Positions 23,566-39,349 of a DNA stretch of 64,000 nt are shown in pieces. This stretch comes from Gemmatimonadota bacterium (GTDB taxonomy: Bacteria > Gemmatimonadota > Gemmatimonadetes > Gemmatimonadales > Gemmatimonadaceae), in contig BJHH01000002.1 of assembly GCA_014192065.1 (NCBI GenBank), positions 1 to 64,000 on the forward strand, in the 5' to 3' direction. Under the pieces are notes generated by a model that had not been told where the DNA came from, did no database searches, and was given only the letters and a program-made list of their open reading frames with translations. Within the stretch, counting starts at the first letter, position 1. Each line of letters starts with the position of its first letter. Made by a program: the position numbers and the translations under genes.

Positions 23566-25944
23566 ATGCCATCCACAATCGCCGGTATTTTCGACACGAT
23601 GGACTACGGCCCCGCGCCGGAAAGCGACAAGCCGGCGCAAGAATGGCTCGCGCGCCACAAGTCGTCGTTCGGCCAGATGATTAACGGCGCGTTCACCAAG
23701 CCAAAGGGCAAGCAGTTCGAGGTAATCAATCCCTCGACCGGCGCGCCGCTCGCGAAAGTGATGCAGGGTTCGAAGGCCGACGTGGACGCCGCCGTCCGCG
23801 CGGCCCGGACGGCACTCGCCGGCTGGCAGGCACTCGGTCCGCACGGCCGCGCGAAGCACCTGTACGCGCTGGCACGTACGGTGCAGCGTCACTCGCGCGT
23901 ACTGGCCGTGCTCGAGTCGATGGACAACGGCAAGAGTATCCGCGAAACGCGGGACATCGACATCCCGCTGGTCGCGCGGCATTTCTACCACCACGCCGGG
24001 TGGGCGCAGCTGCTTGACACCGAATTCGCCGGCTACCGGGCCATCGGCGTCGTAGGGCAAATCATTCCGTGGAACTTTCCGCTGCTGATGCTGGCGTGGA
24101 AGATCGCGCCTGCGCTGGCTGCTGGCTGCACGGTCGTACTGAAGCCCGCCGAGTTCACGCCGCTGTCCGCACTGGCTTTTGCCGAACTGGCCACCGAGGC
24201 CGGCTTGCCGAAGGGCGTGATCAACATCATCACGGGCGACGGCGCCACAGGCGCGCTGCTCGTCGATCATCCCGGCGTGGACAAAATCGCCTTCACCGGC
24301 AGCACCGACGTCGGCCGCATCATCAGGAAGGCCACCGCCGGCAGCGGCAAGAAGCTTTCGCTCGAGCTCGGCGGCAAGAGTCCCTTCATCGTGTTTGACG
24401 ACGCCGACCTCGACTCCGTGGTCGAAGGCGTCGTGGACGCCATCTGGTTCAATCAGGGCCAGGTCTGTTGCGCCGGTTCGAGGCTGCTCATGCAAGAAGG
24501 AATCGCCGACCGCCTGGTGCAGAAACTGCGTGCACGGATGGAGAACCTTCGCGTCGGTTCGTCGCTCGACAAGGCGGTAGACCTGGGGGCGATCGTCGCG
24601 CCGGTGCAACTCGAGCGCATCAAGTCGCTCGTCGCACAGGGCAAGAAGGAAGGCGCCGAGATCTGGCAACCGAGCTGGGCGGTGCCTACGAAAGGTTGCT
24701 TCTATCCACCGACGCTGTTTACCAACGTCGCACCGTCGTCTACCATCGCACAGGTTGAAATCTTCGGCCCGGTACTCGTGTCGATGACCTTCCGCACGCC
24801 GGAAGAAGCAGTCGCACTCGCCAACAACACGCCTTTCGGTCTCGCGGCCAGCATCTGGAGCGAGAACATCAACCTCGCGCTCGACGTGGCGCCGAAGGTG
24901 AAGGCCGGCGTGGTCTGGGTGAACTGCACGAACCAGTTCGACGCGGCCGCAGGATTCGGCGGCTACCGTGAGAGCGGGTACGGACGCGAGGGTGGTCGTG
25001 AGGGCATGTACGAGTATGTGAAGAGAGTGCGTACGCCGGGCGGAGCCGCGACGAAACGACGCCTGACAGGTGAGACCACGCGCTCCCTCACGACGGGATC
25101 GGTGGACCGCACGGCGAAACTCTACATCGGCGGCACGCAGGCCCGCCCGGACGGCGGCTCCTCCATCCGCATCATCGGCGCGTCAGGAAAGGCGGTCGGC
25201 GAAGTTGGCGAAGGAAACCGCAAGGACATTCGCAACGCCGTCGAAGCCGCACGCAACGCGTCGGGCAGCTGGTCGCGCACCAGCGGGCACGCACGCGCGC
25301 AGATTCTGTACTACATCGCCGAGAACCTGTCGGCGCGCGGGGCAGAGTTCACGGCTCGGATTCGCGCGCTCGTGGGGGGCTCGGCGGCCGACGCAAACGC
25401 CGAATTGGACGCGACGGTTCGCCGCCTGTTCACGTACGCCGCGTGGGCCGACAAGTGGGACGGCGCCGTGCACAATACTCCACTCCGCGGCATCACGATC
25501 GCGATGCACGAACCGGTCGGCGTGATCGGCATGGCGGCGCCGGATACCCATCCGTTGCTTGGCTTCGTGTCCGTGGTGGCTCCAGCGATCGCGACGGGTA
25601 ATACCGTCGTGGCGCTGCCGAGCCAGCGGCATCCGCTCGCGGTCACCGACTTCTACCAGGTCCTCGACACGAGTGACCTGCCTGCTGGCGTGATCAACAT
25701 TGTCACCGGTAAGACGCACGACCTGGCTACAGTGCTCGCCGAGCACGACGACGTGGATGCCATCTGGTATTTCGGCGACGCCGATGGCGTCAAGGCCTGC
25801 GAGCTCGCCAGCGGCGGCAACATGAAGCAGACCTGGTGCGAATCCGCTTCACGAGCCTGGACCGATCTGACGGACGGCGAAGGACGCGAGTTTCTCCGCC
25901 ATGCGACGCAGATAAAAAACATCTGGATTCCGTACGGCGAGTGA
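23566..25944 (+). CDS. Two-domain aldehyde dehydrogenase, ALDH16 type
   Basis: 792-aa NAD-dependent aldehyde dehydrogenase with two ALDH modules, the layout of ALDH16 (about 750-800 aa). Domain 1 (about 20-490) is complete: IPWNFPLLM, ITGDGATGALL, FTGSTDVGR, the general-base Glu in LELGGKSP and the nucleophile in NQGQVCCAGSR (Cys301). Domain 2 (about 510-792) repeats the fold (VGVIGMAAPDTHPLL, GVINIVTGKTHDLATVL) but has no GQxC motif and ends early, so it is a pseudo-domain. Bacterial ALDH16 members keep the domain-1 cysteine whereas the human one lost it. Being three bases behind deoC, it most likely oxidises the acetaldehyde made there. Confidence 0.88.
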   Translation: MPSTIAGIFDTMDYGPAPESDKPAQEWLARHKSSFGQMINGAFTKPKGKQFEVINPSTGAPLAKVMQGSKADVDAAVRAARTALAGWQALGPHGRAKHLYALARTVQRHSRVLAVLESMDNGKSIRETRDIDIPLVARHFYHHAGWAQLLDTEFAGYRAIGVVGQIIPWNFPLLMLAWKIAPALAAGCTVVLKPAEFTPLSALAFAELATEAGLPKGVINIITGDGATGALLVDHPGVDKIAFTGSTDVGRIIRKATAGSGKKLSLELGGKSPFIVFDDADLDSVVEGVVDAIWFNQGQVCCAGSRLLMQEGIADRLVQKLRARMENLRVGSSLDKAVDLGAIVAPVQLERIKSLVAQGKKEGAEIWQPSWAVPTKGCFYPPTLFTNVAPSSTIAQVEIFGPVLVSMTFRTPEEAVALANNTPFGLAASIWSENINLALDVAPKVKAGVVWVNCTNQFDAAAGFGGYRESGYGREGGREGMYEYVKRVRTPGGAATKRRLTGETTRSLTTGSVDRTAKLYIGGTQARPDGGSSIRIIGASGKAVGEVGEGNRKDIRNAVEAARNASGSWSRTSGHARAQILYYIAENLSARGAEFTARIRALVGGSAADANAELDATVRRLFTYAAWADKWDGAVHNTPLRGITIAMHEPVGVIGMAAPDTHPLLGFVSVVAPAIATGNTVVALPSQRHPLAVTDFYQVLDTSDLPAGVINIVTGKTHDLATVLAEHDDVDAIWYFGDADGVKACELASGGNMKQTWCESASRAWTDLTDGEGREFLRHATQIKNIWIPYGE

Positions 25945-26031: not shown

Positions 26032-27228
26032 CTATTGCACCGCGTTGATCATGTCGAAGATCGGCAGGTACATGGCCACGACCAAGCCGCCGACGACTAC
26101 GCCGAGACAGATGACGATCAGCGGTTCGAGCAGTGCGAGCAGGCCGCCGACGGCCGCATCGACTTCGTCATCGTAGAAGTCGGCAATTTTTGTGAGCATT
26201 TCGTCGAGACCACCGGTCTGCTCGCCGACGGCGATCATCGAAATCACCATCGGCGGGAAGACCCGACTCTCGGCGAGCGGCGCCGCAATCGTGTCACCGC
26301 CGGCGATCGACGAGCGGCTCGCCATGATCGCGTCCTGAATCACGCGGTTGCCAGCCGTCTTGGCGGTGATCTCGAGGCCGTCGAGGATGCTGACCCCCGA
26401 ACTGAGCAGGGTGCCGAGCGTGCGCGTGAAGCGCGACACGGCCGACTTGCGCAGGAGGTCGCCAAGCACGGGAAGGTTGAGCAACAACTTATCCACCTGC
26501 AGGCGTCCGTTCGGCGTGGCGACGTACCGCTTGAAGCCTAGAAAGCCGACGTACCCGCCGACGCCGAACATCCACCAGCCCTGCTTCAGGATCTCTGGCA
26601 GCAGAATCACGATGCGGGTCGGCAGCGGCAGGACGAGATTCACGCTCGCAAACATATTCTGGAAGACGGGAATAACGAAGATGAGCAATACGCTGATCGC
26701 CATCGCGGCGACCGCGAAGATGACGCTTGGGTAAACCATAGCGCTCTTCACTTTTCGCATGAGCGCGTCGTTCTTTTCCATGAACGTCGCGAGCCGCATC
26801 AGGATGGTGTCGAGAATACCGCCCGCCTCACCAGCGGCCACCATATTCACGTACAAGTCACTGAACGCCTTCGGGTGTTTCGCGAGCGCGTCGGCCACCG
26901 TGTGACCGGACTCCACGTCGAACACCACCTCCCGCGCCACTGCGGCAAGCGCTTTGTTTGCGGTCTGCTTGGACAAAATCTCGAGCGCCTGAACGAGCGG
27001 AAGGCCCGCGTTGATCATGGTCGAAAACTGGCGCGTAAAAATCACGACGTCGCGCATCGCGATGGCGCCGACTGGCTTCTGCCTCGACTTTGACGCCTCC
27101 TCGATTTTCACGATATGCAGCCGCCGCTTGCGCAGTTGCTGGATGACGTCCGCCCGGTTCCCCGCCACCATCGTGTCGGTCGTGATCGCACCCTTCTGGT
27201 CGCGCGCCGTGTACGAATAGTTGGGCAT
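26032..27228 (-). CDS. pilC: Type IV pilus inner-membrane platform protein PilC
   Basis: 398-aa GspF/PilC platform protein that connects pilus motor ATPases to the assembling pilin. It has two T2SSF domains (about 65-190 and 270-395), each with a helical bundle: FTRQFSTMINAGLPLVQALEIL and FTRTLGTLLSSGVSILDGLEI are the paired repeats, and EAGGILDTIL and EQTGGLDEML the matching repeats after them. Three membrane helices are evident, the last at the C-terminus (LIVICLGVVVGGLVVAMYL). Length and N-terminus (MPNYSYTARDQKGA) match PilC. It follows pilT after 70 bases and closes the sprA-to-pilC run. Confidence 0.94.
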   Translation of the reverse strand: MPNYSYTARDQKGAITTDTMVAGNRADVIQQLRKRRLHIVKIEEASKSRQKPVGAIAMRDVVIFTRQFSTMINAGLPLVQALEILSKQTANKALAAVAREVVFDVESGHTVADALAKHPKAFSDLYVNMVAAGEAGGILDTILMRLATFMEKNDALMRKVKSAMVYPSVIFAVAAMAISVLLIFVIPVFQNMFASVNLVLPLPTRIVILLPEILKQGWWMFGVGGYVGFLGFKRYVATPNGRLQVDKLLLNLPVLGDLLRKSAVSRFTRTLGTLLSSGVSILDGLEITAKTAGNRVIQDAIMASRSSIAGGDTIAAPLAESRVFPPMVISMIAVGEQTGGLDEMLTKIADFYDDEVDAAVGGLLALLEPLIVICLGVVVGGLVVAMYLPIFDMINAVQ

Positions 27229-27298: not shown

Positions 27299-28408
27299 TC
27301 ACTGGCCCACGGGTGATTTGCCGATGAGTCGCAGAAACTCGTTTGGGTCGCCTGACACGCGGAGGCATTCGTCTTCCTCCACCTCGCGCGCTCGGTAGAG
27401 GCCGTACAGGGCGTCGTTCATGGTCTGCATGCCGTACTTCTTGCCCGCCTGCATCGACGAGTAGATCTGGTGGACTTTGTCGTCGCGGATAAGCGCACGG
27501 ATCGCGTGCGTGACGACGAGCACCTCGCACGCCATCGCGCGGCCATTGCCGTTGGCCTTGGGCAGCAGCGCCTGCCGCACGACCCCCTCAAGTACGGAGG
27601 CGAGCTGCGTGCGCACCTGAGACTGTTGATGGCTCGGAAAGGCGTCGATGATGCGGCTGACTGCCTCGGCGGCGGAATTCGCGTGCAGCGTCGCGAACAC
27701 GAGGTGGCCCGTTTCGGCGATGGTGAGGCCGGCGTGGATCGTTTCCAGGTCGCGCATTTCGCCGACCAGCACAACATCGGGGTCTTCACGCAGCGCGTAT
27801 TTGCGGGCGGCGGCGAACGACTTGGTGTCGGCCCCGACCTCGCGCTGGCTGACGATGCAGCGCTTGTGCTCGTGAACGAATTCGATCGGGTCTTCCACCG
27901 TGATGATGTGACCCGTCCGCTCTCGGTTGACCTTGTCGATCAGCGCGGCCAGGGTGGTCGACTTGCCGGAACCCGCCGGCCCCGTGACGAGCACGAGTCC
28001 GCGCGGCTTCTCGGCGAACTTCACGATCGCAGGCGGGAGCATCAGCTGCGCAACCGTCTGGATCGTGATCGGGATCTGGCGCATTACCATCGACACTGCG
28101 CCACGCTGCTTGAAACAGTTGCCGCGGAAGCGCGCCAGATGCTGGATACCGAACGCAAAGTCGAGCTCGTCTTCCAGTTCGAAGCGCTGCTGCTGCTGTG
28201 CCGTGAGCGCCGAGTACGCCACCGCGCGCGTGTCGCTGGGCGTCAGTACAAAGGTCGAGCGCGACGAGGTGATCTCGCCGTCGATGCGTAGCTTGGCGCA
28301 TTCGCCTGCGGTGATGTGCAGATCGGATCCACCTCGCTCGACCATTTCCTCGAGGAGCACCCGGAGGTTGACGCCTGGCGGTGGTGCGGCGGAACCTAGG
28401 GCGGTCAT
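27299..28408 (-). CDS. pilT: Type IV pilus retraction ATPase PilT
   Basis: 369-aa hexameric ATPase that depolymerises the pilus for twitching and DNA uptake. Motifs in order: N-terminal GGSDLHITAGE, Walker A GPAGSGKSTT, the Asp box IITVEDPIEFVH, Walker B DPDVVLVGEMRD, His box TGHLVFATLHANSA and the PilT-specific AIRALIRDDKVHQI (AIRNLIRE in the classic form), which sets it apart from PilB. ATG at 28408 is chosen; the frame stays open to 29257 but that part is antisense-like to the ComEA-type gene. The extension ATPase PilB is not in the window. Confidence 0.95.
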   Translation of the reverse strand: MTALGSAAPPPGVNLRVLLEEMVERGGSDLHITAGECAKLRIDGEITSSRSTFVLTPSDTRAVAYSALTAQQQQRFELEDELDFAFGIQHLARFRGNCFKQRGAVSMVMRQIPITIQTVAQLMLPPAIVKFAEKPRGLVLVTGPAGSGKSTTLAALIDKVNRERTGHIITVEDPIEFVHEHKRCIVSQREVGADTKSFAAARKYALREDPDVVLVGEMRDLETIHAGLTIAETGHLVFATLHANSAAEAVSRIIDAFPSHQQSQVRTQLASVLEGVVRQALLPKANGNGRAMACEVLVVTHAIRALIRDDKVHQIYSSMQAGKKYGMQTMNDALYGLYRAREVEEDECLRVSGDPNEFLRLIGKSPVGQ

Positions 28409-28553
28409 CTGGGCTGGTTGCCGGTTATGGCGATTCGGGTTGAGTTGGACACGGCGCGCGGATGGTGCCGGCGTCGATTTCTGCCACGCCGTACAACTTA
28501 ATTGAAAGCCCAAGGCACCTCGCGGGTGGAGCTGACCGCCAATGACTGGCGTG

Positions 28554-29306
28554 TCAAGGACGGTTGGGGCGCACCCGGACGGCTCGCAACTTGATGACGC
28601 GTTCGCCTCCAGAACCAGAGCGCGAGAAGGTGACGAACTGGCCGATTTTCGCGGCCAACGCTGGGCCCACACCGCGAACTCTTTGCAGGCCGGCCAGCGA
28701 TCCGAACGCTCCCCGAGCCGAACGGTCGGCGACAATTCGTGCGGCGAGAACCGGGCCAATCGATGGGAGCGATGCGATGGCCGCTGCGTCCGCCGTATCG
28801 ACATCCACGAGTTGGCGATCCCGAACTGCGTTGGCAAACGAGCCGGGCTGCGATGGCGCACGACCTGGAGGAGGAGGCGAGACCGCTGCAGACCCCGTGT
28901 CTGCCCGATCGCGCTCGATGCGCGCCTGTACGTCCCGGTTCCGGCGCGCCACGTCGAGGCGCCGTCTTTCGTATAGCGCGAGTGGATCGGGCGGAGGCAC
29001 GTCCTGCGCGCGCCGATCGAGCGCCGCACGGCCGGCCCTGCTCTCGGTCGCTCCAGATTTCGGTAACTGCGACCTGACTGCAGGAGTCCCGGCGCGCTGG
29101 CTCCGACCGCGTCCGCTGGCCGAGCGCTTGGCCAGCGTCGCGGAATCGACCGCGTCGATCTGCCGGCCGAGCGCGGCCCGTGATTCCTCGGCACCGCGCG
29201 CACCCTGAGGGTTGCCCGGCGCGCTGCGAAACGCGCGCACCCCGACTCCCAGCGCACCCAGCGCGGCGAGGAAGATCAGGGCGCGGCGTTCATTCGGCGT
29301 TGGCAT
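28554..29306 (-). CDS. ComEA-like helix-hairpin-helix protein
   Basis: 250-aa protein with an N-terminal membrane helix (RRALIFLAALGALGVGVRAF), a long low-complexity, charged linker rich in Arg/Ala/Pro (about 30-175) and a C-terminal pair of helix-hairpin-helix motifs (VDVDTADAAAIASLPSIG and LAGLQRVRGVGPALAAKIG) as in the DNA receptor ComEA. Such proteins bind incoming DNA in the periplasm during natural transformation. Its place beside pilT and pilC supports a competence role. ATG at 29306 starts directly before the membrane helix. The linker is longer than in typical ComEA. Confidence 0.8.
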   Translation of the reverse strand: MPTPNERRALIFLAALGALGVGVRAFRSAPGNPQGARGAEESRAALGRQIDAVDSATLAKRSASGRGRSQRAGTPAVRSQLPKSGATESRAGRAALDRRAQDVPPPDPLALYERRRLDVARRNRDVQARIERDRADTGSAAVSPPPPGRAPSQPGSFANAVRDRQLVDVDTADAAAIASLPSIGPVLAARIVADRSARGAFGSLAGLQRVRGVGPALAAKIGQFVTFSRSGSGGERVIKLRAVRVRPNRP

Positions 29307-29397: not shown

Positions 29398-30384
29398 CTA
29401 TCGCAGCAGCGCCATCGCGACGTCACCAACAATCCGGAGCGACTTGGCGCTCACGCGGTCGATGTCGTCCGCCATCGTATGGTGCGCGTCGTAATCGAGA
29501 TCGATCACATCGATCACCGGCAGCCCCGCCTTGAGCAGCGGGTAGTGATCGTCCGTGATCGGGTAGCTACGCATGTCCGGCAGAAAGGTCTGCTCGTAGC
29601 CGAGTTCCTTGGCCGCGGCCCAGACGCGTTGCACCACATCCGGCGCGTGCTGCGCGGAGTACATCTCCTGCGGGATGTTGAGGTCGGCGTCGCCGATCAT
29701 ATCCCAGAGGACGCCAAACATCGGCTTGTATCCCGGCGAGGGGAGATGCTCCGCGAAGTAGGTCGAGCCGATGAGCACGTCCACGTCGGGCCCGAACGTT
29801 CCCCAGTCCTCTCCGTCCACGAAGAGCAGGTCGACACCCATTGAGGGCGGCAGCTTCTTGAGCGCGTCGGCCACGGCGAGCAGCAGCGCGACACCACTCG
29901 CGCCGTCGTTGGCTCCCGGAATCGGCTTGTCGTGGTTGGCGACATCCTGGTCGCTATCGGCGCGCGGACGGGTATCCCAGTGCGCCACATAGAGCACGCG
30001 ATCCGTCGCGTTCGGCTTGAACCGCGCCAAGATGTTGCGCATCGGAATCTGGTTCTTCGTGGCGAGCGTGTGCGTCCACTTCTGCTCGGTCACCTCGTCG
30101 GCGGTGCCCTTGAGCTTCGCGACGATCCAGTCGCCGGTCTTCTGCCAGCCGGGCGTACCGGGGACGCGGGGACCGAACGCGAGCTGCTGGCGCACGTAGC
30201 TCATCGCGGAATCGACGTCGAACTCGGCGGCGGCCGACGATCTTGGCGTGACTGTGCGCGCATCACCGCCCGTCGAGCAGGCGACCGTGGGCGTCAGGAG
30301 GAGCGCAGCCGCGACCACCATGGCCGTCGCGCCGCCTGTTCGCGTGCGAATGTGGACGGGTGATGTCCCGGTGGTGGTGCTCAT
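29398..30384 (-). CDS. M28-family lipoprotein peptidase, glutaminyl-cyclase-like
   Basis: 328-aa lipoprotein with a lipobox ending LTPTVAC and an M28 zinc-hydrolase domain: VAHWDTRPRAD, IPGANDGASGVALLL, LLFVDGEDWG, LWDMIGDADL and a final VIDVIDLDYDAHHT histidine. The FVDGEDWG and NDGASG forms and overall length also fit the bacterial relatives of glutaminyl-peptide cyclotransferase, so it may make N-terminal pyroglutamate instead of removing residues. Its ATG overlaps the sprA stop (ATGA). Because SprA-type systems export proteins, a modifying enzyme coupled to it could act on exported N-termini; this is inference. Confidence 0.85.
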   Translation of the reverse strand: MSTTTGTSPVHIRTRTGGATAMVVAAALLLTPTVACSTGGDARTVTPRSSAAAEFDVDSAMSYVRQQLAFGPRVPGTPGWQKTGDWIVAKLKGTADEVTEQKWTHTLATKNQIPMRNILARFKPNATDRVLYVAHWDTRPRADSDQDVANHDKPIPGANDGASGVALLLAVADALKKLPPSMGVDLLFVDGEDWGTFGPDVDVLIGSTYFAEHLPSPGYKPMFGVLWDMIGDADLNIPQEMYSAQHAPDVVQRVWAAAKELGYEQTFLPDMRSYPITDDHYPLLKAGLPVIDVIDLDYDAHHTMADDIDRVSAKSLRIVGDVAMALLR

Positions 30385-33300
30385 CGCAACTCTCCGGCGA
30401 AGAACGAGATTTGCAGTACCGCCGACAGTACCATCTGGGTGAGTCGGCGGTTCAAGTTGTTGTCGTACGTCACGATTCGCGCGCCCTGCAGCGAAAACGT
30501 GAGGTTGTCGGCCACGTCGGTATCGGCGTTGAAGCTAATGGCTTCCCTGCCGTTGTCGGCGAGGCGGGACCGAAGCGACGTCGCGCTGGTCGTCTCGACC
30601 CAACTCGTCGTGGCGGTGTGCTGCCACGCGATGCGCGTACGCAGGTCACTCTTGAGCGCCCAGTCCTTTGGCAACTTGAACGATCGGCTCATATCGGTGC
30701 CGACATCGCGCGACCAGGCGTCGAGGAAGCTGCCCGGCAGGGAATCGACGCGATGCGTCGTGGCGATCGACACGCCAGTCATGAGCCCACCGCGATCATT
30801 CCACGCGACCTGAGCGCTCACCGGATAGCTCAGCGAACGGCCGGCGCGCACGTCGGCGCGCGAGCCGGCCGGCCCGGGAAGCACACTGTGTTGCGACATG
30901 GCAACGAGTCGTGCGCTGGCGGTGATGCTCGTCAGGAACCCGTCAAGCGCCCGCGGCCGAAGCGTGCCGCGCAACGAAATGTCTGGAAGCGTGACGAGGT
31001 CGCCGTCCACGACGACTTCGGACCGGTCGGGCCTTCGCAGCCAGTTCCGTGATGCAAGACGCTGTGTGCGCAGATCGAGCGTGAGGCCCAGCGGCAGACG
31101 AAGCCCGGTGGCCAGCGCGACCTGGGTATTGCTGCTCGCGGTCGTGGCCAGAAACCCATGATCGCTCAGGAACGTGTTCGCTCCGCCCCAGCCGAACTGC
31201 ATCCCGAGGCCCGGTGTGCGCGGCGTCCCGTCGTAGTTCGACGAAATCGTCCGCGAGACCGACGCCTCGAGCGGCACCAGCGTACGGCCGAGCATCGCGA
31301 GCGTGCCGCTGTCGGTGGTCCACGCATGCGCCATGCGGGCGACATCAAACGCGACGGCACCGCTCATCGATTGCGCGGCACTCACCCGCCGCGGCAACCG
31401 CAACGCCCCGGCCGTGTCTCCCTCGTAGAGCAACACGCGCGCATTCGGGTCGCGCAGATGCCCGTAGCTCGACGTCATCTCCGCGCGCGGACGCATCCAT
31501 CCCTCCAGCTGCGGGGCGAAGGTGTACGAGGTCGTGAGCGCGCGTTCCCGTTCGAGCCCAGCGTCCACGCCAAGCAACGATGACCGTTCCGCGGCCGCGA
31601 CCCGCGCCGTCTGAGTCGAGTCGCCGTAGTTCACGAGGTCGCGTGTGCTCGCGAGTTCCCAGCGGGCGGTGAATGCGTCGAATGGCTTGAGTTCGAGCGA
31701 GGTCGCATTGCGCCAGAGATTTTGGCGACCGTCCACGCGGCGCGCGGTATCGCGAGCCGACCCAGCGACGGTGAGAAAACTCGATCGGCTTTCGTCGGCC
31801 GACGCGTAGTTGCCGCTGACACGAAACGCCGCCGGCTGCAGGCGCGGCTTCGCGTTGCGGAGCGCTTGCAGCATCTCTGAACCGGCCAGCCAATCGGGGA
31901 GGGCGTCGAACGTGCGCATCCACCACGCGGGCATGAGGCCGGCCGGCGATTCGCCGCCAATCGCATAGTCGACGCCGGCACTCAGCCGCGACTGGTCCGC
32001 GACCTGGAACTCCGAGCGGGTGTTGGCGCCGCCGACGCCCGCCGTCACGGCGAGGTTATTGACGATCGGCGCCAGCCAGCCCCCGGCCACCGGCTCGGCA
32101 CGTCGCAGCGCCACCGACACGTTCGTCGCGCGCTGCGCGGGCTTGCGAAGTCCAGCGATGTCGGAGGCCCGCAGATCGGATCGGGTAAGAAACTGTGGAT
32201 CGGTGCGACCGTTCGTGTACGTCGCCGTGACCGGTACCGCCCAGCCGGCCGCGCCGCCGAAGAACTGGTCGAGGCGCACGGTCGCACTCATCTCGAGTTG
32301 CTCGTCGGCGAGATACGTCGCCGCCTCCGTCAGCTGGCGGAAGTTTGGATCGCGCTTCGTGAAGTTCAGGCGCAACTGGGCCACGTCCCCGAAATTCGCC
32401 TGCGCGCCCACCTGCCCCGCGTATCCGGGCGTGCCCACCACACCGGCGAGACGAATGTCGTCCACCCAGACTTCGAGCGTGTCGCCCGGCACGATCGGCG
32501 ACGCTCCACCAGCGGAATCGACACGGACCATCCCGACGGCGAGTTCCTGCACGGCCGAGAGATTGGGGGGCGCGACCACCGGATCGGAGGCGTAGACGAT
32601 GTAGCCATCCGCGCAGGCCGCGAATCGGCGTGATATCTGCCCAGCGGGCAACGCGCTCTGCGCGATCAGCACGAGATCCGCGCCCGTGCACGAAATCGAA
32701 TCCGGACGGTTCTGCAGGTAGGCATTCTCGAGCCGTGCACGCAGCGCATACAGTTTGTCGAAGTCCACGCGCACCTCGGGCAGCCAGGCGGCCTGCGTCG
32801 TGCCCGACTGCACCGGCGTGCGATACGCATAAAAGCTGTTGGGGTCTCGACCGATCTTCACGAAAAACTGCAACTCGCCCTTCTGGCCCCAGCCGTCGCC
32901 GCGGCCACGCGCCCAGACACGCAGTTCGCGATACTGCCGGAAGTTCTTCGCACCTTCAGGGAACCGATACACCGCCTCGGCGCGCTCGAGCGGCTTGAGC
33001 GCCGTCGCCGTGAGCCGCATCGAGCGCTCGTTGATCACGACCCGCTCATTCTCGAGCCCCGTGAGCTTGCGCTCGGCTTCGTCTACAACACCCGGCGGCG
33101 ACTGGTACCCGAGGGCACTCAGCGAGTCGAGCGTGCCCACAGTTCCGGCGAACACCAGTCCAGTACCAGTGCGCTCACCACCGATTCCGGTCAGCGTGTG
33201 GTCTGACCGTTTGAGCCAGCTTGCACCCACCATGCGCAGGCGCGAGACGACCAGCTGCGAGAATTCCGAATCACGCAGCCCTTCGCCCGACACCATCGTG

Positions 33301-36300
33301 AGGCGCAGCGCGCGCACGCGCTGAACAGAGGGCCCGCCGTTGATCGTGTCGGACGGCGCGGCGAAGGGCAGTCGGACCAACACCCAGCACTGCTTGGCCG
33401 CCGCGACACCGGCCGAATCGTTCGGCGGCGTCCGGCAACCGCCGACGCGCGTCCACGACTTGGGATCGGCGAGGTCGGCGACGTAGCGGAAGAGCCGCTC
33501 CTGTTCACGCTGGGCCGCGTCGAAGTTGAGCACATTGTCGCCGTCGATGTCCGATTCGTCGAGGCGCCCATTGCCGACCGTACAGTTCGTGCGCGTTTCG
33601 CCGAGGCGCGCGACCTGCGTATTGCTGCGCGCGCACATGGTCACGTTCGTTTTGATGCCTTCCGATTCCGGCGTCGTGACGAGCAGGCGCGGCACGACGT
33701 CGCCCGGAAGCCCGGTGTCGTTCTTCTCCTGGTTGAACGCGCGCGAAAACAGATCGCGCTCAGACTGCAGCGTATCGCGGCCCGCGATGGCGCGGCCCGC
33801 CCACACGGAGTCACGTACGCCGCCGGTTCCGGTGACCGTGAGTTGCGTCGGCACGATGGCCACGGCGTTTTCGCTCACGTCACCGAGATCGACGACGATC
33901 AGCGGATTGCGCCGCCGCCGCACGACAGAGGTATCGACCAGCGCCCAGAACTCCAGCGATTCCTTGCCAGTCAGATTCACGCCCGAGGCCGCACCAAGCA
34001 CCTGACGAATTGAGCGCCAGCGGCGCCCCGTCGGCGTTCCGGTCGCCTTCCAACGGTACTTCCGCGCCGCATCGTCGTAGGCGCCACCGATCGACAGCGG
34101 GTACAGCGTCAACCAGATCACCTGCTCCGGCTGCTCAATGCCCGCGCCAGCCAGCTTCGTGAGCGGGTCGATTTCCTGCAATGTGAAACGCGGTACCGAG
34201 TCGCGAATCGTGAGTCCGTTGTTTTGCCACGCGAGCGTGCCCGCGTGGGAGAGATCGAGCACGCCGGCTCCACCCACGCGAGCCGAGAGCACGCGGCCGA
34301 GCGCGGGTTGACTCGAGTAGTACCAGTTCGGATCGGCAAGCGACACCGCGAACCCACCGTCGCTCTCGAACGATTCGATCCACGCCTGTCCCGATCCGCC
34401 AGGCTGCGGACGGCTGGTCGCGAACTCCGCGTCGAAACGCACGCGCGACGGCGTCATCGCATCGCGACCGGTCATCCGTCGCGCCATTCGCGCGAAGGCA
34501 GGCACCTCAAACCCATAACTCCCGCTGACACCGGCCACGACCGCCGACTCATCGGCGTAGCCGAGCTGCGGCCGCGTGAACGAGGAGTGCTGCCGCTGGC
34601 TGATGGCGACGAAGTTGAGCTCGCCACCCGAAAAAGCGAACTGCGATGCCACACCGAAGATGCTCGTCGGCGTCGCCACGAAAAGCGGCGTCTCCTCAAA
34701 CCGCACCGTCACCTGCCGCGGCCGCGAAAAGAGCGAATCCGACCTGAGCAGCGTCACCCGGCCGAGATCGTAGTCCACCACGTAGTCGCGGTCGCGGCGC
34801 AGCACCGTGCCATCGTCAAGCACGAGTCGCTCCGACAGTGGCTTCAGCTGCGTCGAACCCAGCGCGATCGTCGTGGCATCCTCACCGGCGTCCGTCTCGA
34901 ACCGCACGCGCAGGCGATACACCGGCTGCGGATGCAACGCGGAGTTGAGGTCTTCGTTAGGCGTTCGGTAGATCGCGTCATTGGACGGGTTCGCCGCCCC
35001 GCCCGTGAGTCCCGCGCGTGCGAACGGCTGCAGCGATGGAAACACGACGAACCGATCACGGACAACACTGCTCGTTGCCGCGCCCGCGAGCGACAGCACT
35101 GGATCGCCGCGCCGCGGCCAGACCCGCCCTTCGGCGTCGAACGCCGAGGGCATGCCGAGCTTCGCCAGGCCGAACAATTCAAGGAAGCTGGAGCGCACGC
35201 CACCCGGCGGCCTCTCCTGTTCGAAGGTGCCACCGGTCACCACGGTCATCTGGACCGATTCGCGGCGCACTTCCTCGCCACCGACCCGGTACGCAGACCG
35301 GATTTCACGGTAGAACGCCGCGTCGCCCGGACGCACGTTCGGATCCCAGACCAGCTGCGCCACCTGTTCTCGCGAATCCACCCGCACCACATCTGGCGTG
35401 CCACCGGTCGTAGCGATCACCGTGTCACGGCCGCCGACTCGCACGGTGTAGGCCAGCACGAGGCGTTCCTTGTTCGGGTCGAGAGGCTGGGCGAGCATCA
35501 CCCAGAGCTGCGACGGATCGACGTAGAAATCGACGTTTTCGCGCAGCGGCTCGTACACCGGACCCCGGCGCGACGACGGATCGCCGAGCAGGCGGAACTG
35601 CGGACCGTTGGGGCTCGGAGGCTGCCCGCCGATGAGCAGCCGGTACAGCGAAATCCGCACCGGGCGCACCGAGTCGGCGAGTTGGGCAGCAAGCTGTCTC
35701 AGGCGGGTCGCGTCGAGAATGTCGACGTTCGGGAACCCAGTGAACTGCCGGGGATCAACCGTGAAGAAGAAGCGGCGCGCTTCCATCTGGTAGTCGTCAA
35801 TCTCGAGCGAACCAGGCTGTCCGCCCGAACCGCCGATCGCGAACACGCGGTCGCGCTGCACGATGCCCTTCTGCTCTGCCGCGATCGCCCGCACCGTCAG
35901 ACGTCCAAACTTCGCGGCGGCCTGCACGCCGTAGTTCCCCTGCGGGACCCCGCTGGTGATGAATCGCGAGGGCGCAATGTCGAAGGTCACATTGCCGACG
36001 TCGATCCGCTGCAACCACTCGTTCGGCTTGCCCTGATACGAGAGCGCAATCCGGTTCGAACCGTCAAACTCCCGGCGTGAGTCGTAGTCCACCTCGGTCC
36101 GTACCCGCTCCGCGATCGTGCCGCCGGTCTTCAGCCCAAACTGGAACTCGGGAATCGCCTGCCATGGGGCGTTACACTGGGCGCCAAGCACGAAAAACTG
36201 GCTGGCCACGCACCGCTCGTTCCGCGTGCGCTCGCCCTTGAACTCAAAGCGGCCGTTGAAGCTGAGCCCTAGGTCGCTGCCGGGTCCGAACAGCCGGGTG

Positions 36301-36473
36301 AAGAGCGAATCTGCCCGCGCCGCTGCCGAATCGGGGCGCGCCCGGACCGTGTCGCGGCCTGCTGGCCGGCCGGCCTGCTGGGGCATCGGCGCGGCGGCGG
36401 CCGTGGCCGGTGCCAAGGCACCGCTCACGGCGAGGGCCAGCAGGGTTGCGATCGGGTAACGAATGAATCGCAC
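30381..36473 (-). CDS. SprA/Sov-like outer-membrane translocon
   Basis: About 2030-aa exported giant resembling SprA (Sov), the 36-strand outer-membrane channel of the type 9 secretion system (about 2350-2500 aa in Bacteroidota). GTG at 36473 gives a signal peptide (FIRYPIATLLALAVSGALA); a TTG at 36509 is also open. SprA-like traits are the N-terminal FNGRFEFKGERTRNER, ELNFVAISQRQHS, the WIESFESDGGF segment (SprA members have a DDFEG-type motif), repeated EYRELRVWARG-like and VDDIRLAGV passages, dozens of amphipathic strands and a C-terminal barrel end. It heads a run with an M28 enzyme, a ComEA-like protein, pilT and pilC. No other T9SS genes (porK-N, PorV) are in view. Confidence 0.78.
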   Translation of the reverse strand: MRFIRYPIATLLALAVSGALAPATAAAAPMPQQAGRPAGRDTVRARPDSAAARADSLFTRLFGPGSDLGLSFNGRFEFKGERTRNERCVASQFFVLGAQCNAPWQAIPEFQFGLKTGGTIAERVRTEVDYDSRREFDGSNRIALSYQGKPNEWLQRIDVGNVTFDIAPSRFITSGVPQGNYGVQAAAKFGRLTVRAIAAEQKGIVQRDRVFAIGGSGGQPGSLEIDDYQMEARRFFFTVDPRQFTGFPNVDILDATRLRQLAAQLADSVRPVRISLYRLLIGGQPPSPNGPQFRLLGDPSSRRGPVYEPLRENVDFYVDPSQLWVMLAQPLDPNKERLVLAYTVRVGGRDTVIATTGGTPDVVRVDSREQVAQLVWDPNVRPGDAAFYREIRSAYRVGGEEVRRESVQMTVVTGGTFEQERPPGGVRSSFLELFGLAKLGMPSAFDAEGRVWPRRGDPVLSLAGAATSSVVRDRFVVFPSLQPFARAGLTGGAANPSNDAIYRTPNEDLNSALHPQPVYRLRVRFETDAGEDATTIALGSTQLKPLSERLVLDDGTVLRRDRDYVVDYDLGRVTLLRSDSLFSRPRQVTVRFEETPLFVATPTSIFGVASQFAFSGGELNFVAISQRQHSSFTRPQLGYADESAVVAGVSGSYGFEVPAFARMARRMTGRDAMTPSRVRFDAEFATSRPQPGGSGQAWIESFESDGGFAVSLADPNWYYSSQPALGRVLSARVGGAGVLDLSHAGTLAWQNNGLTIRDSVPRFTLQEIDPLTKLAGAGIEQPEQVIWLTLYPLSIGGAYDDAARKYRWKATGTPTGRRWRSIRQVLGAASGVNLTGKESLEFWALVDTSVVRRRRNPLIVVDLGDVSENAVAIVPTQLTVTGTGGVRDSVWAGRAIAGRDTLQSERDLFSRAFNQEKNDTGLPGDVVPRLLVTTPESEGIKTNVTMCARSNTQVARLGETRTNCTVGNGRLDESDIDGDNVLNFDAAQREQERLFRYVADLADPKSWTRVGGCRTPPNDSAGVAAAKQCWVLVRLPFAAPSDTINGGPSVQRVRALRLTMVSGEGLRDSEFSQLVVSRLRMVGASWLKRSDHTLTGIGGERTGTGLVFAGTVGTLDSLSALGYQSPPGVVDEAERKLTGLENERVVINERSMRLTATALKPLERAEAVYRFPEGAKNFRQYRELRVWARGRGDGWGQKGELQFFVKIGRDPNSFYAYRTPVQSGTTQAAWLPEVRVDFDKLYALRARLENAYLQNRPDSISCTGADLVLIAQSALPAGQISRRFAACADGYIVYASDPVVAPPNLSAVQELAVGMVRVDSAGGASPIVPGDTLEVWVDDIRLAGVVGTPGYAGQVGAQANFGDVAQLRLNFTKRDPNFRQLTEAATYLADEQLEMSATVRLDQFFGGAAGWAVPVTATYTNGRTDPQFLTRSDLRASDIAGLRKPAQRATNVSVALRRAEPVAGGWLAPIVNNLAVTAGVGGANTRSEFQVADQSRLSAGVDYAIGGESPAGLMPAWWMRTFDALPDWLAGSEMLQALRNAKPRLQPAAFRVSGNYASADESRSSFLTVAGSARDTARRVDGRQNLWRNATSLELKPFDAFTARWELASTRDLVNYGDSTQTARVAAAERSSLLGVDAGLERERALTTSYTFAPQLEGWMRPRAEMTSSYGHLRDPNARVLLYEGDTAGALRLPRRVSAAQSMSGAVAFDVARMAHAWTTDSGTLAMLGRTLVPLEASVSRTISSNYDGTPRTPGLGMQFGWGGANTFLSDHGFLATTASSNTQVALATGLRLPLGLTLDLRTQRLASRNWLRRPDRSEVVVDGDLVTLPDISLRGTLRPRALDGFLTSITASARLVAMSQHSVLPGPAGSRADVRAGRSLSYPVSAQVAWNDRGGLMTGVSIATTHRVDSLPGSFLDAWSRDVGTDMSRSFKLPKDWALKSDLRTRIAWQHTATTSWVETTSATSLRSRLADNGREAISFNADTDVADNLTFSLQGARIVTYDNNLNRRLTQMVLSAVLQISFFAGELR

Positions 36474-36623
36474 GTCGTGGCGGACCCGGACCCGGGAACG
36501 GGGTATCAACTATACTTCTACCGTCTGGTATTCTGCCGTCAATCTGTGGAATATACGACCCGACCGAGACCCTACAACCCTTTGTGCCGTAGGGAGTTCG
36601 GACCACGCCGTCAACGACGCCCC

Positions 36624-38198
36624 TTGAGAATCATCAGCCGCTACGTCCTTCGCGAGCACTTCGGGCCGCTACTCTTTTCGATGTCGGCCCTGACGTCGTT
36701 GCTGCTGCTGAACTACGTGGCCAAGCAGCTGCCGCAGCTCGTGGGCAAGGAACTCGGCTGGACGGTGATCGCGGAATTCATCGTACTCTCGCTCCCGTTC
36801 ACCGTGGCGATGACGCTGCCGATGGCCGTGCTCGTTTCCACGCTTCACGCGTTCAGCCGCCTGGCCGCCGACAGCGAGATCACCGCATGCAAGGCGAGCG
36901 GGATGGCCTTGCCGCGCCTCATGGCGCCGGTCATCGCCAGCGGACTCGTGCTGTCGCTCATCATGGTCTGGTTCAACGACCAGGTGATGCCGGCGGCCAA
37001 CTACCAGTTACAGACGCTCTCGAACGATATCGCGCGTAAAAAGCCGACCTTCGCTCTGCGGCCGCAGGTGATCAACCAGGTGTCGCCGGTGCTCTTCCTG
37101 CGCGCGGGCCATCTCGCCAGCGGGTCGAGCGAGATGCGCGACGTGACGATCTACGACTTTTCCGACAACCAGCGGCGGCGAACGATCCGAGCCAAGTCGG
37201 GCCATGTGGAGCTTTCGCGCGATGGTCGCGACCTGATCCTCAGCCTCACGGACGGCAGCACCACCGAGGTGAGCCGGCTCGAGCCCGAGCGGCTTCAGCG
37301 CGTGTTCTTTCGCACAAGTTCCGTGAAGGTGCGTGGCATCGGCAACGATCTCGAGCGCAACACGTCCGGCGGCGAAAAAAGTGATCGAGAAAAAACCGTC
37401 TGTGAGTTGGAAGCGCAGATGCAACTGGCCGTGCTCAGCCGTGACAGCGTGTTCAAGGGCATGGGGACGCTGGATTCAACTGCCGCGCGCACGATCGGGA
37501 ACCCCCGGGTCCTCGCTGGTAGCGGCACCGTGTATTGCCGGATGGTGCGCGCCTTCCGTCGGCTGAGCGTGCCGGGCGTGCCGAGCGTGGCGCAGGCACA
37601 CGCCGCGACGCTACCGTCCCGACTGCAGGACTCCGCGCGCGTAGCAATCCAGAATTCCTCGGCCACGATTCCGCCGGCAGCGCAGGCGCCAGCCCAGTCC
37701 GTCGTTCCACTAGCCCCGACCGTCGCTCCATCGTCCGGCGAACCGTCTCCCGATGACCTGGCACAGCGCCCCATGCTGGTCGAAGGGATGAAGTTGCAAC
37801 TGGCCAACTCGCAGCGGATCATTGACGGAAACCAGGTGGAAATCGAGAAGAAGTTTGCGATCGCCACGGCCTGTATGGTCTTCGCTTTGCTCGGCGCACC
37901 CATTGCGTTCCGGTTCCCGCGTGGCGGCGTTGGCATGACCATCGGCGTGAGCTTGGGCGTGTTCGGCGTCTACTACTGCGGCCTGATCGCCGGCGAGGAA
38001 CTCGCGAGGCGCGGCCATCTTCCGGCGTTCGTCGCCATGTGGGCAACCAACGCCATCCTCCTGGCGATTGGCCTCTTGCTCACGGCGCGCCTAGGCCACG
38101 AAGGGACGACGACGCGTGGCAGCGAGTGGTCGGACCAAGTCGGCCGCTGGATGGACCGGTTGCGGCCGCGGATGGGCTCGCGCGTGGCGAAGGTCTGA
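36624..38198 (+). CDS. lptF: LPS-export permease LptF
   Basis: Inner-membrane permease of the LptB2FG transporter that pulls lipopolysaccharide out of the inner membrane. The protein starts at TTG (36624) with RIISRYVLREHFGPLLF, has three N-terminal helices, a periplasmic beta-jellyroll and three C-terminal helices (IATACMVFALLGAPIAF, GVSLGVFGVYYCGLI, WATNAILLAIGLLL). At 524 aa it is about 150 longer than E. coli LptF: the extra part sits in the periplasmic region (about 250-405), is Ala/Pro/Ser-rich and contains two cysteines. Its stop overlaps the lptG start by one base (TGATG). Confidence 0.9.
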   Translation: MRIISRYVLREHFGPLLFSMSALTSLLLLNYVAKQLPQLVGKELGWTVIAEFIVLSLPFTVAMTLPMAVLVSTLHAFSRLAADSEITACKASGMALPRLMAPVIASGLVLSLIMVWFNDQVMPAANYQLQTLSNDIARKKPTFALRPQVINQVSPVLFLRAGHLASGSSEMRDVTIYDFSDNQRRRTIRAKSGHVELSRDGRDLILSLTDGSTTEVSRLEPERLQRVFFRTSSVKVRGIGNDLERNTSGGEKSDREKTVCELEAQMQLAVLSRDSVFKGMGTLDSTAARTIGNPRVLAGSGTVYCRMVRAFRRLSVPGVPSVAQAHAATLPSRLQDSARVAIQNSSATIPPAAQAPAQSVVPLAPTVAPSSGEPSPDDLAQRPMLVEGMKLQLANSQRIIDGNQVEIEKKFAIATACMVFALLGAPIAFRFPRGGVGMTIGVSLGVFGVYYCGLIAGEELARRGHLPAFVAMWATNAILLAIGLLLTARLGHEGTTTRGSEWSDQVGRWMDRLRPRMGSRVAKV

Positions 38199-39349
38199 TG
38201 CGTTCAATCATCCGGCCGCTGGACAAGTACGTCCTGAAGGAATTCCTCGGCATTTTTGTCGCGGCCACGGTCGGGTTTCCGATCCTCGTGATCGTGCTTG
38301 ATGTGACCGAGAACCTCGGCAAGTACCTGCAACGCCAACTGCCGCCTCTCGACATCGCGCAGGCGTACCTGTATGGCGTACCGGAAACGATGTTTCAGGT
38401 GCTGCCCGCGGCGGTGCTGTTCGCGACCGTGTTTTCTATCGGCTCGTTCACGCGGCACGCCGAGATCACCGCGGCCAAGGCATCGGGCATCAGCTTTCAC
38501 CGGTTCATCTTGCCCATCGTATTCGGCGCAATGGTGTCCACCGTCCTTGGACTCGGGCTGGGCGCCATGATGCCCGCCGCGAACCAGCGGCGCGGCGAGC
38601 TGCTGCAGGAGCGCAAATCGAAGGGGCTGGACTACCGCGGCAACTTCACGTTCGCGAGCGAAGACGGACGCGTCTACAAGATTGGCGGCGCCGATGCCCT
38701 GCAAGGCACGCTCGATGACTTGGAGATCGAGCGGCGCGGCACCGGTCCGGCCTTTCCGACTTATTTGATCTACGCGCGCAACGCGCGGTACGCCGCCAGC
38801 TCGCCCGCCAGCTCGCCCGCCAGCTCGCCCGCCAGCTCGCCCGCCAGCTCGCCCGCCAGCACGGGCCAGGTGTGGACGCTCAAGCAGGGCATCATCCACA
38901 TCATGCCCGACGACTCAACCAACTTCGCCGTCTCTTTTGACTCGCTCCGCGACCCGAACTTTCGCGAGGCGCCGCGCGCCGTGATGGCCGACCCGCGCGC
39001 GCCTGACGAAATGGGATTCACCGACCTCGGCGTGTTCATCCAGGCGATGGAGCGTTCCGGCACCGACGTGAACAAGTTCCGGACAGCGCGCATGCTCAAG
39101 CTCGCGATTCCGGTCACCTGCGTGATCATCATGCTCTTCGGCGCCCCGCTCGCCACGAGCACGCAGCGCGGCGGCGCCGCGCTCGGCGTTGGTATCAGTC
39201 TCGCGACGACGATTGTCTTCCTGATGCTCGTGCAACTGACGCAGGCGATCGGCGACAAGGGACTCGTCATGCCCGAACTGGCGGCCTGGATTCCAAGCGC
39301 GGTATTTGGAATCCTGGGGACCATACTCCTCGTACGGGTACGGACATGA
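38198..39349 (+). CDS. lptG: LPS-export permease LptG
   Basis: Second permease of the LptB2FG complex, 383 aa. The N-terminus SIIRPLDKYVLKEFLGIF and FTRHAEITAAKASGISFHRF coupling helix are family hallmarks; three helices on each side flank the periplasmic jellyroll, and the C-terminal part has GAPLATSTQRGGAALGVGISL. An ASSP tetrapeptide is repeated five times in the jellyroll (about residues 200-221), from a 12-bp DNA tandem repeat. ATG at 38198 overlaps the lptF stop; the gene's own stop overlaps the mlaE ATG (ATGA). The LptB ATPase is not in the window. Confidence 0.93.
   Translation: MRSIIRPLDKYVLKEFLGIFVAATVGFPILVIVLDVTENLGKYLQRQLPPLDIAQAYLYGVPETMFQVLPAAVLFATVFSIGSFTRHAEITAAKASGISFHRFILPIVFGAMVSTVLGLGLGAMMPAANQRRGELLQERKSKGLDYRGNFTFASEDGRVYKIGGADALQGTLDDLEIERRGTGPAFPTYLIYARNARYAASSPASSPASSPASSPASSPASTGQVWTLKQGIIHIMPDDSTNFAVSFDSLRDPNFREAPRAVMADPRAPDEMGFTDLGVFIQAMERSGTDVNKFRTARMLKLAIPVTCVIIMLFGAPLATSTQRGGAALGVGISLATTIVFLMLVQLTQAIGDKGLVMPELAAWIPSAVFGILGTILLVRVRT
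38795..38860. repeat. 12-bp tandem repeat in lptG
   Basis: Five perfect copies of GCCAGCTCGCCC (38795-38854) plus half a sixth. It is in frame, encoding ASSP repeats, so copy-number change would alter length without a frameshift. Confidence 0.95.

Follow-up and report, generated by a model that had tools for sequence, protein, structure and literature searches.

A SprA translocon and its unlinked PorV-like partner in Gemmatimonadota, probably the core of a pared-down type 9 secretion system

In this study, we analyzed a 64,000-nucleotide stretch of DNA from a Gemmatimonadota bacterium (hereafter the window) and identified the product of the gene at 30381..36473 on the (-) strand as a genuine SprA/Sov translocon. 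It is likely that this SprA belongs to a pared-down type 9 secretion system (T9SS) that is probably ancestral to Gemmatimonadota. Descriptions of the T9SS usually confine it to Bacteroidota (or to the FCB group) and name GldLM as the motor that drives it. One paper states that it "may also be present" in Gemmatimonadetes (PMC11285876), and a survey placed T9SS in Bacteroidetes only, with the Gemmatimonadetes genomes too few to be shown (PMC4793230). We found no open-licence paper on the joint loss of SprA and PorV, on an operon of sprA and a glutaminyl cyclase (QC) gene, or on the pattern of QC replacement in Gemmatimonadota. Since SprA and PorV are kept or lost together in this phylum while the known motor goes undetected, Gemmatimonadota would offer a natural test of what a minimal translocon needs.

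The sprA gene and its PorV-like partner

The sprA open reading frame starts with GTG at 36473, stops at 30381 and encodes 2030 aa; starting instead from a TTG 12 codons 5' of the GTG would give 2042 aa. The N terminus of the product resembles a signal peptide (FIRYPIATLLALAVSGALAPATAAA). The first-pass annotation had described a 2030-aa SprA/Sov-like outer-membrane protein, and the reading frame was recovered exactly as described. The poor score against the SprA model that it had named as grounds for refutation was not seen: TIGR04189 ("T9SS outer membrane translocon Sov/SprA"), for which the cut-off is 200, matched at 582.5 bits (E 2e-174), the alignment falling into two stretches at model positions 76-308 and 377-1815 (of 2319). 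Pfam SprA_N also scored above its cut-off, and the solved SprA of Flavobacterium johnsoniae (6h3i) was matched by phmmer at E 1.7e-16. The protein was modelled by AlphaFold as two overlapping fragments, each from 55-57 homologues, with pLDDT of 80 and 83. SprA structures (8gl8, 8gl6 and 6h3i) were the sole matches of the N-terminal model, at E 1e-45 with the next at 0.027. The C-terminal model matched SprA best (E 2.5e-29), generic outer-membrane barrels following from 4e-5. Both half-models thus match SprA best, and the full protein may have its giant (36-strand) barrel fold. The identity of the window sprA to related loci reaches 81% in the N part and 78% in the C part.

The SprA loci compared here were retained from a wide contig scan and come from Gemmatimonadota or from MAGs close to them. 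Over the main stretch of the TIGR04189 match, SprA of genus g4 (L003 and L037, probably Gemmatimonas) scored 794-1251 bits against 452 for the window protein, and is therefore much nearer to the Bacteroidota-trained model. A contig titled Candidatus Kuenenia stuttgartiensis (CALQGY020000001.1, L070) carries a Gemmatimonas-like SprA with 65% identity; it probably represents a mislabelled or contaminated MAG.

The window genome also contains a PorV-like gene that is unlinked to sprA and lies on another contig (G000:C3:162251-163210, E 6.7e-85). It was found by a phylum-specific profile, A2, built from Pfam PorV matches in SprA-positive genomes. The Pfam profile PF19572 missed this gene, which shows that Gemmatimonadota members do escape profiles trained on Bacteroidota. 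All 12 members of A2 match Pfam PorV, and the Pfam PorV matches were confined to SprA-positive genomes (31/31). Among solved structures, A2 matched PorV in its cryo-EM complexes with SprA (6h3i_F) at E 1.5e-27, and the next match was at 0.12. Judged by its sequence, the gene would supply the PorV carrier expected of a T9SS. The earlier statement that the other T9SS genes are absent therefore holds for the window, in which none was seen, but not for the genome.

Of the 150 Gemmatimonadota genomes, 106 have SprA, as do 56 of their 74 genera. A2 matched in 113 genomes at E 1e-5, the window genome included. Strong PorV-like matches (E <1e-20) occurred in 99 of the 106 SprA-positive genomes and in 3 of the 44 SprA-negative genomes (p=7e-26); in this and the other co-occurrence statistics related genomes do not count as independent observations, and both A2 and the CTD profile described below were built from SprA-positive genomes and could favour their relatives, although SprA-negative genomes of the same genus or family also have no PorV. 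With each genus entered once per SprA state, the table was 53/3 versus 3/21 (p=3.5e-13). The genomes that lack both SprA and PorV include G057, of the window's own genus, and, as sampled, the whole of genera g2, g8, g11, g16 and g18 of the same family. The exceptions are seven SprA-positive genomes without a strong PorV-like match and the three SprA-negative genomes with one, among them G040, in which the contig ends at the QC gene, on the side expected to hold sprA. Because SprA co-occurs with an unlinked PorV-like protein, in the window genome as elsewhere, the two are probably the core of a type 9 secretion system here.

Cargo, PorU and motor searches

The translocation mechanism is inferred from Flavobacterium. 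In the substrate-bound translocon of F. johnsoniae, the cargo binds PorV loops in the SprA pore and exits through a lateral opening together with PorV, and release requires energy, which the GldLM motor supplies (PMC10994853). In Gemmatimonadota, Sec-exported cargo would likewise reach the periplasm, enter the SprA barrel and leave it sideways bound to the PorV-like carrier.

In the window genome, no CTD cargo was detected by TIGR04183 or by a Gemmatimonadota CTD profile, and no PorU (C25, PF01364) was found. Elsewhere in the phylum the Gemmatimonadota CTD profile matched in 42 genomes, all SprA-positive (p=3.7e-8, with the same possible bias toward relatives), often beside a PorV gene; in relatives, one PorV type adjoins a CTD protein and another adjoins era. 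Strong PF01364 matches were restricted to the six genomes of the deep sister family f9, which lies outside the window's class, and the class itself yielded one weak C25 match (G032). Each of these f9 genomes (G001, G003, G005, G007, G009 and G011) has one C25 PorU, adjoining PorV in several of them, together with 11-33 TIGR04183 CTD matches and 5-14 PorV-like matches. GldL and GldM were detected in 0 of 150 genomes at E 0.001, the six f9 genomes included, in searches that used Bacteroidota-trained profiles and no positive-control genome. The genome-wide check proposed in the first-pass annotation thus recovered PorV, and neither CTD domains nor GldL/GldM (porL/porM).

Four loci of families f2 and f3 (L229, L230, L232 and L233) have a gene block 15-23 kb from sprA. 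In f2 it comprises a 1100-1195-aa protein that looks TonB-receptor-like and then a CTD protein of about 1300 aa; usually a PorV-like gene comes next, and the block also encodes a GWxTD-domain protein and one more secreted protein. No CTD-PorV block of this kind was seen among the window genes at 46-64 kb.

It is possible that the system is instead a complete classical T9SS, in which PorU, cargo and the motor and ring of GldKLMN exist in forms too diverged for Bacteroidota-trained profiles. This reading overlaps with that of a pared-down system and differs from it on the motor. That PF19572 overlooked a PorV which the phylum-specific profile found readily shows how such genes may escape, the GldL and GldM searches had no positive control, and f9 has PorU, PorV and many CTD cargos. 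Yet the same tools that found SprA, PorU, CTD and PorV returned no GldL or GldM from any of the 150 genomes, and on balance we find a complete system doubtful. It is less probable still, and in our view unlikely, that SprA and PorV are vestigial in the window's genus and kept by inertia after the loss of cargo and motor. The empty searches for cargo, PorU and motor in the window genome would agree with such decay, as would its small size (2.45 Mb, compared with 3.1-3.6 Mb in genomes of the same genus), the loss of pilB described below and the several genera that have lost both SprA and PorV. However, sprA is intact over 2030 codons and closely similar to related loci, PorV is an open frame, and these two unlinked genes have been kept together, which speaks for selection.

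SprA with PorV but without an identified cargo or motor could also serve another purpose. A SprA-PorV translocon without a detected motor might point to a second energy source. Family f9, which combines PorU and CTD proteins with no GldL or GldM match, is the most promising family in which to seek an alternative energiser of the T9SS.

A conserved neighbourhood of separable modules

The genes around sprA follow a recurring order in most families examined, lptG-lptF (divergent) / sprA-(qc)-comEA-pilB-pilT-pilC. Divergent lptF/lptG genes lie upstream of sprA in 53 of 54 loci, and QC, comEA and/or pil genes follow it co-directionally in 44 of the 46 loci whose downstream sequence extends beyond 6.5 kb. 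A comEA-like gene stands 3' of sprA even in f9. This recurrence across the phylum shows that the arrangement is old, neither peculiar to the window genome nor due to chance, and it probably represents a vertically inherited neighbourhood of envelope genes.

In the window, the upstream side comprises two conserved LPS export permease genes on the (+) strand with uncertain starts, an lptF-like gene at 36546..38198 (PF03739, 256 bits), divergent from sprA, and an lptG-like gene at 38039..39349 (PF03739, 220 bits). The LptG-like protein contains a run of ASSP repeats at about 38820-38890 (SSPASSPASSPASSPASSPAS), possibly a tract of variable length. Downstream, beyond the qc gene, a comEA-like helix-hairpin-helix protein whose N-terminal part includes a hydrophobic segment is encoded at 28554..29306 (-), with ATG 29306 as the likely start; it matches PF12836 (HHH_3) at 47.5 bits, and its score of 38.9 bits against comE TIGR01259 is under the cut-off of that model. 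The gene for the type IV pilus retraction ATPase, pilT, follows at 27299..28408 (-) (start ATG 28408; TIGR01420, 461 bits, cut-off 319), and that for the inner-membrane platform protein, pilC, at 26032..27228 (-) (T2SSF, 217 bits; NF052606, 461 bits, under its cut-off of 700). The co-directional run of comEA-like, pilT and pilC genes after sprA and its "M28" neighbour was therefore correctly annotated at first pass. In relatives, pilB lies between comEA and pilT. At the window locus it is cleanly gone, the gap (28408-28554) being only about 145 bases, and pilB, pilT and pilC do not occur together there. Beyond pilC, 23566-25944 encodes a protein of 792 aa whose N-terminal part is aldehyde-dehydrogenase-like and whose second, C-terminal part looks similar.

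The first-pass annotation was right that SprA sits in a pilus and competence block without the usual T9SS set around it. From this arrangement it proposed, as one of two options, a role for the SprA-like channel outside the classical T9SS, taken here as work with the type IV pilus and competence machinery. The phylum-wide co-directional order from sprA to pilC and the comEA-like gene after sprA in f9 would fit such a role. However, G057 and G129 retain lptF and the complete qc-comEA-pilB-pilT-pilC block with sprA missing. Conversely, G027, like G057 from the window's genus, keeps sprA and qc and has lost comEA, pilB and pilT, so that only pilC follows, and some f5 loci (L052, L053) have sprA with no comEA or pil genes nearby. 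Assembly gaps alone were considered as the reason for missing sprA and rejected as a general cause, because L234 and L194 run unbroken from lptF to QC and have no sprA. Since sprA and the pilus genes have been lost separately in relatives, sprA is not tied to the pilus. The modules are separable, so that genes sharing this operon need not share a function. SprA also tracks the unlinked PorV, and we consider a pilus-related role very unlikely, the least probable of the readings weighed here. In the pared-down T9SS, the operon partners of SprA would be independent modules, with comEA-pil as a separate pilus and competence unit. Shared regulation of sprA and its neighbours by putative co-transcription, also suggested at first pass, is possible.

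Glutaminyl cyclase and comparison with known systems

The gene directly after sprA (qc, 29398..30384, (-)) overlaps the sprA stop by four bases at its start (ATGA). The overlap had been annotated correctly; the label "M28 enzyme" had not. The product has the M28 fold (PF04389), and it is a predicted type II (animal-type) glutaminyl cyclase and possible lipoprotein. Its nearest solved relatives in a phmmer search of the PDB are the bacterial glutamine cyclotransferases 6qql and 7cje (E 4e-57), and human (about 1e-6) and insect QCs match far more weakly. The active-site motifs GANDG, DGED, DMIG, DDH and HTM are all in the window protein. As to its activity, we infer that the enzyme would turn the N-terminal Gln of exported proteins in general into pyroglutamate. 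The idea that QC is present to serve SprA was rejected, since SprA and the animal-type QC of its own operon show no association across the 150 genomes (76/106 SprA-positive versus 31/44 SprA-negative, p=1). Because SprA tracks an unlinked PorV (p=7e-26) and not the QC of its own operon, a T9SS role is better supported than the role outside T9SS first proposed.

Animal-type QC was found in 107 and plant-type QC (strong matches) in 47 of 150 Gemmatimonadota genomes; 14 have both, 10 have neither and 140 have at least one of the two. Genus g4 has the plant type only. The two types avoid each other (p=1e-13 by genome, 0.003 by genus), as they do in Bacteroidetes, in which 574 animal, 507 plant and 63 both were counted (PMC5837995). 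This near-universal presence of QC, with two types largely replacing each other, suggests, though it does not prove, a Q-rule (Gln at +1 in most substrates of signal peptidase I) like that of Bacteroidota, which has been called exclusive to Bacteroidetes (PMC10653852). At the loosest threshold of a home-made signal-peptide predictor, Gln occupied position +1 in 31% (33/107) of the sites as compared with 10% (4/41) in E. coli (p=0.01), and this single-site version, with 500 kb of E. coli, was the sole test that separated the two. A stricter threshold of the same predictor gave 36% versus 17% (p=0.13), and when sites were counted more loosely Gemmatimonadota and E. coli were not told apart. The excess of Gln after signal peptides is only suggestive, and we regard the Q-rule in Gemmatimonadota as a good lead and make no claim of it. 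It is tentatively conceivable, with the balance tilting slightly against it, that a SprA-PorV translocon works here without GldLM on another energy source and that its exports carry QC-made pyroglutamate N termini, as in Bacteroidota. With an animal- or plant-type QC in 140 of the genomes, the question of QC and the Q-rule moves outside Bacteroidota.

Compared with the SprA-PorV complex of F. johnsoniae (6h3i, 8gl8), the window genome has the same SprA equivalog by HMM, with half-models that match SprA best, and its PorV-like protein is a homologue of the very PorV in that complex. As in the F. johnsoniae T9SS, SprA, PorV and CTD proteins go together, here by co-occurrence across Gemmatimonadota genomes. 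In contrast, the window SprA is about 370 residues shorter than the 2403-aa protein of F. johnsoniae, GldL and GldM are not detected, the window genome yielded no PorU or CTD cargo, and sprA resides in a neighbourhood of lptFG, QC, comEA and pil genes. The pilB-pilT-pilC set with comEA is represented by the same gene families, in the same order in relatives; the window locus differs from known type IV pilus motor loci in having no pilB, with a PilB-like ATPase, under its family cut-off, on another contig (C1). The QC resembles the PgQC type of the Q-rule in P. gingivalis (PMC5837995, PMC10653852) in sequence, in active-site motifs and in the replacement of one type by the other between species, and it differs from the Bacteroidetes case in that the phylum is Gemmatimonadota and the QC gene lies within the sprA operon.
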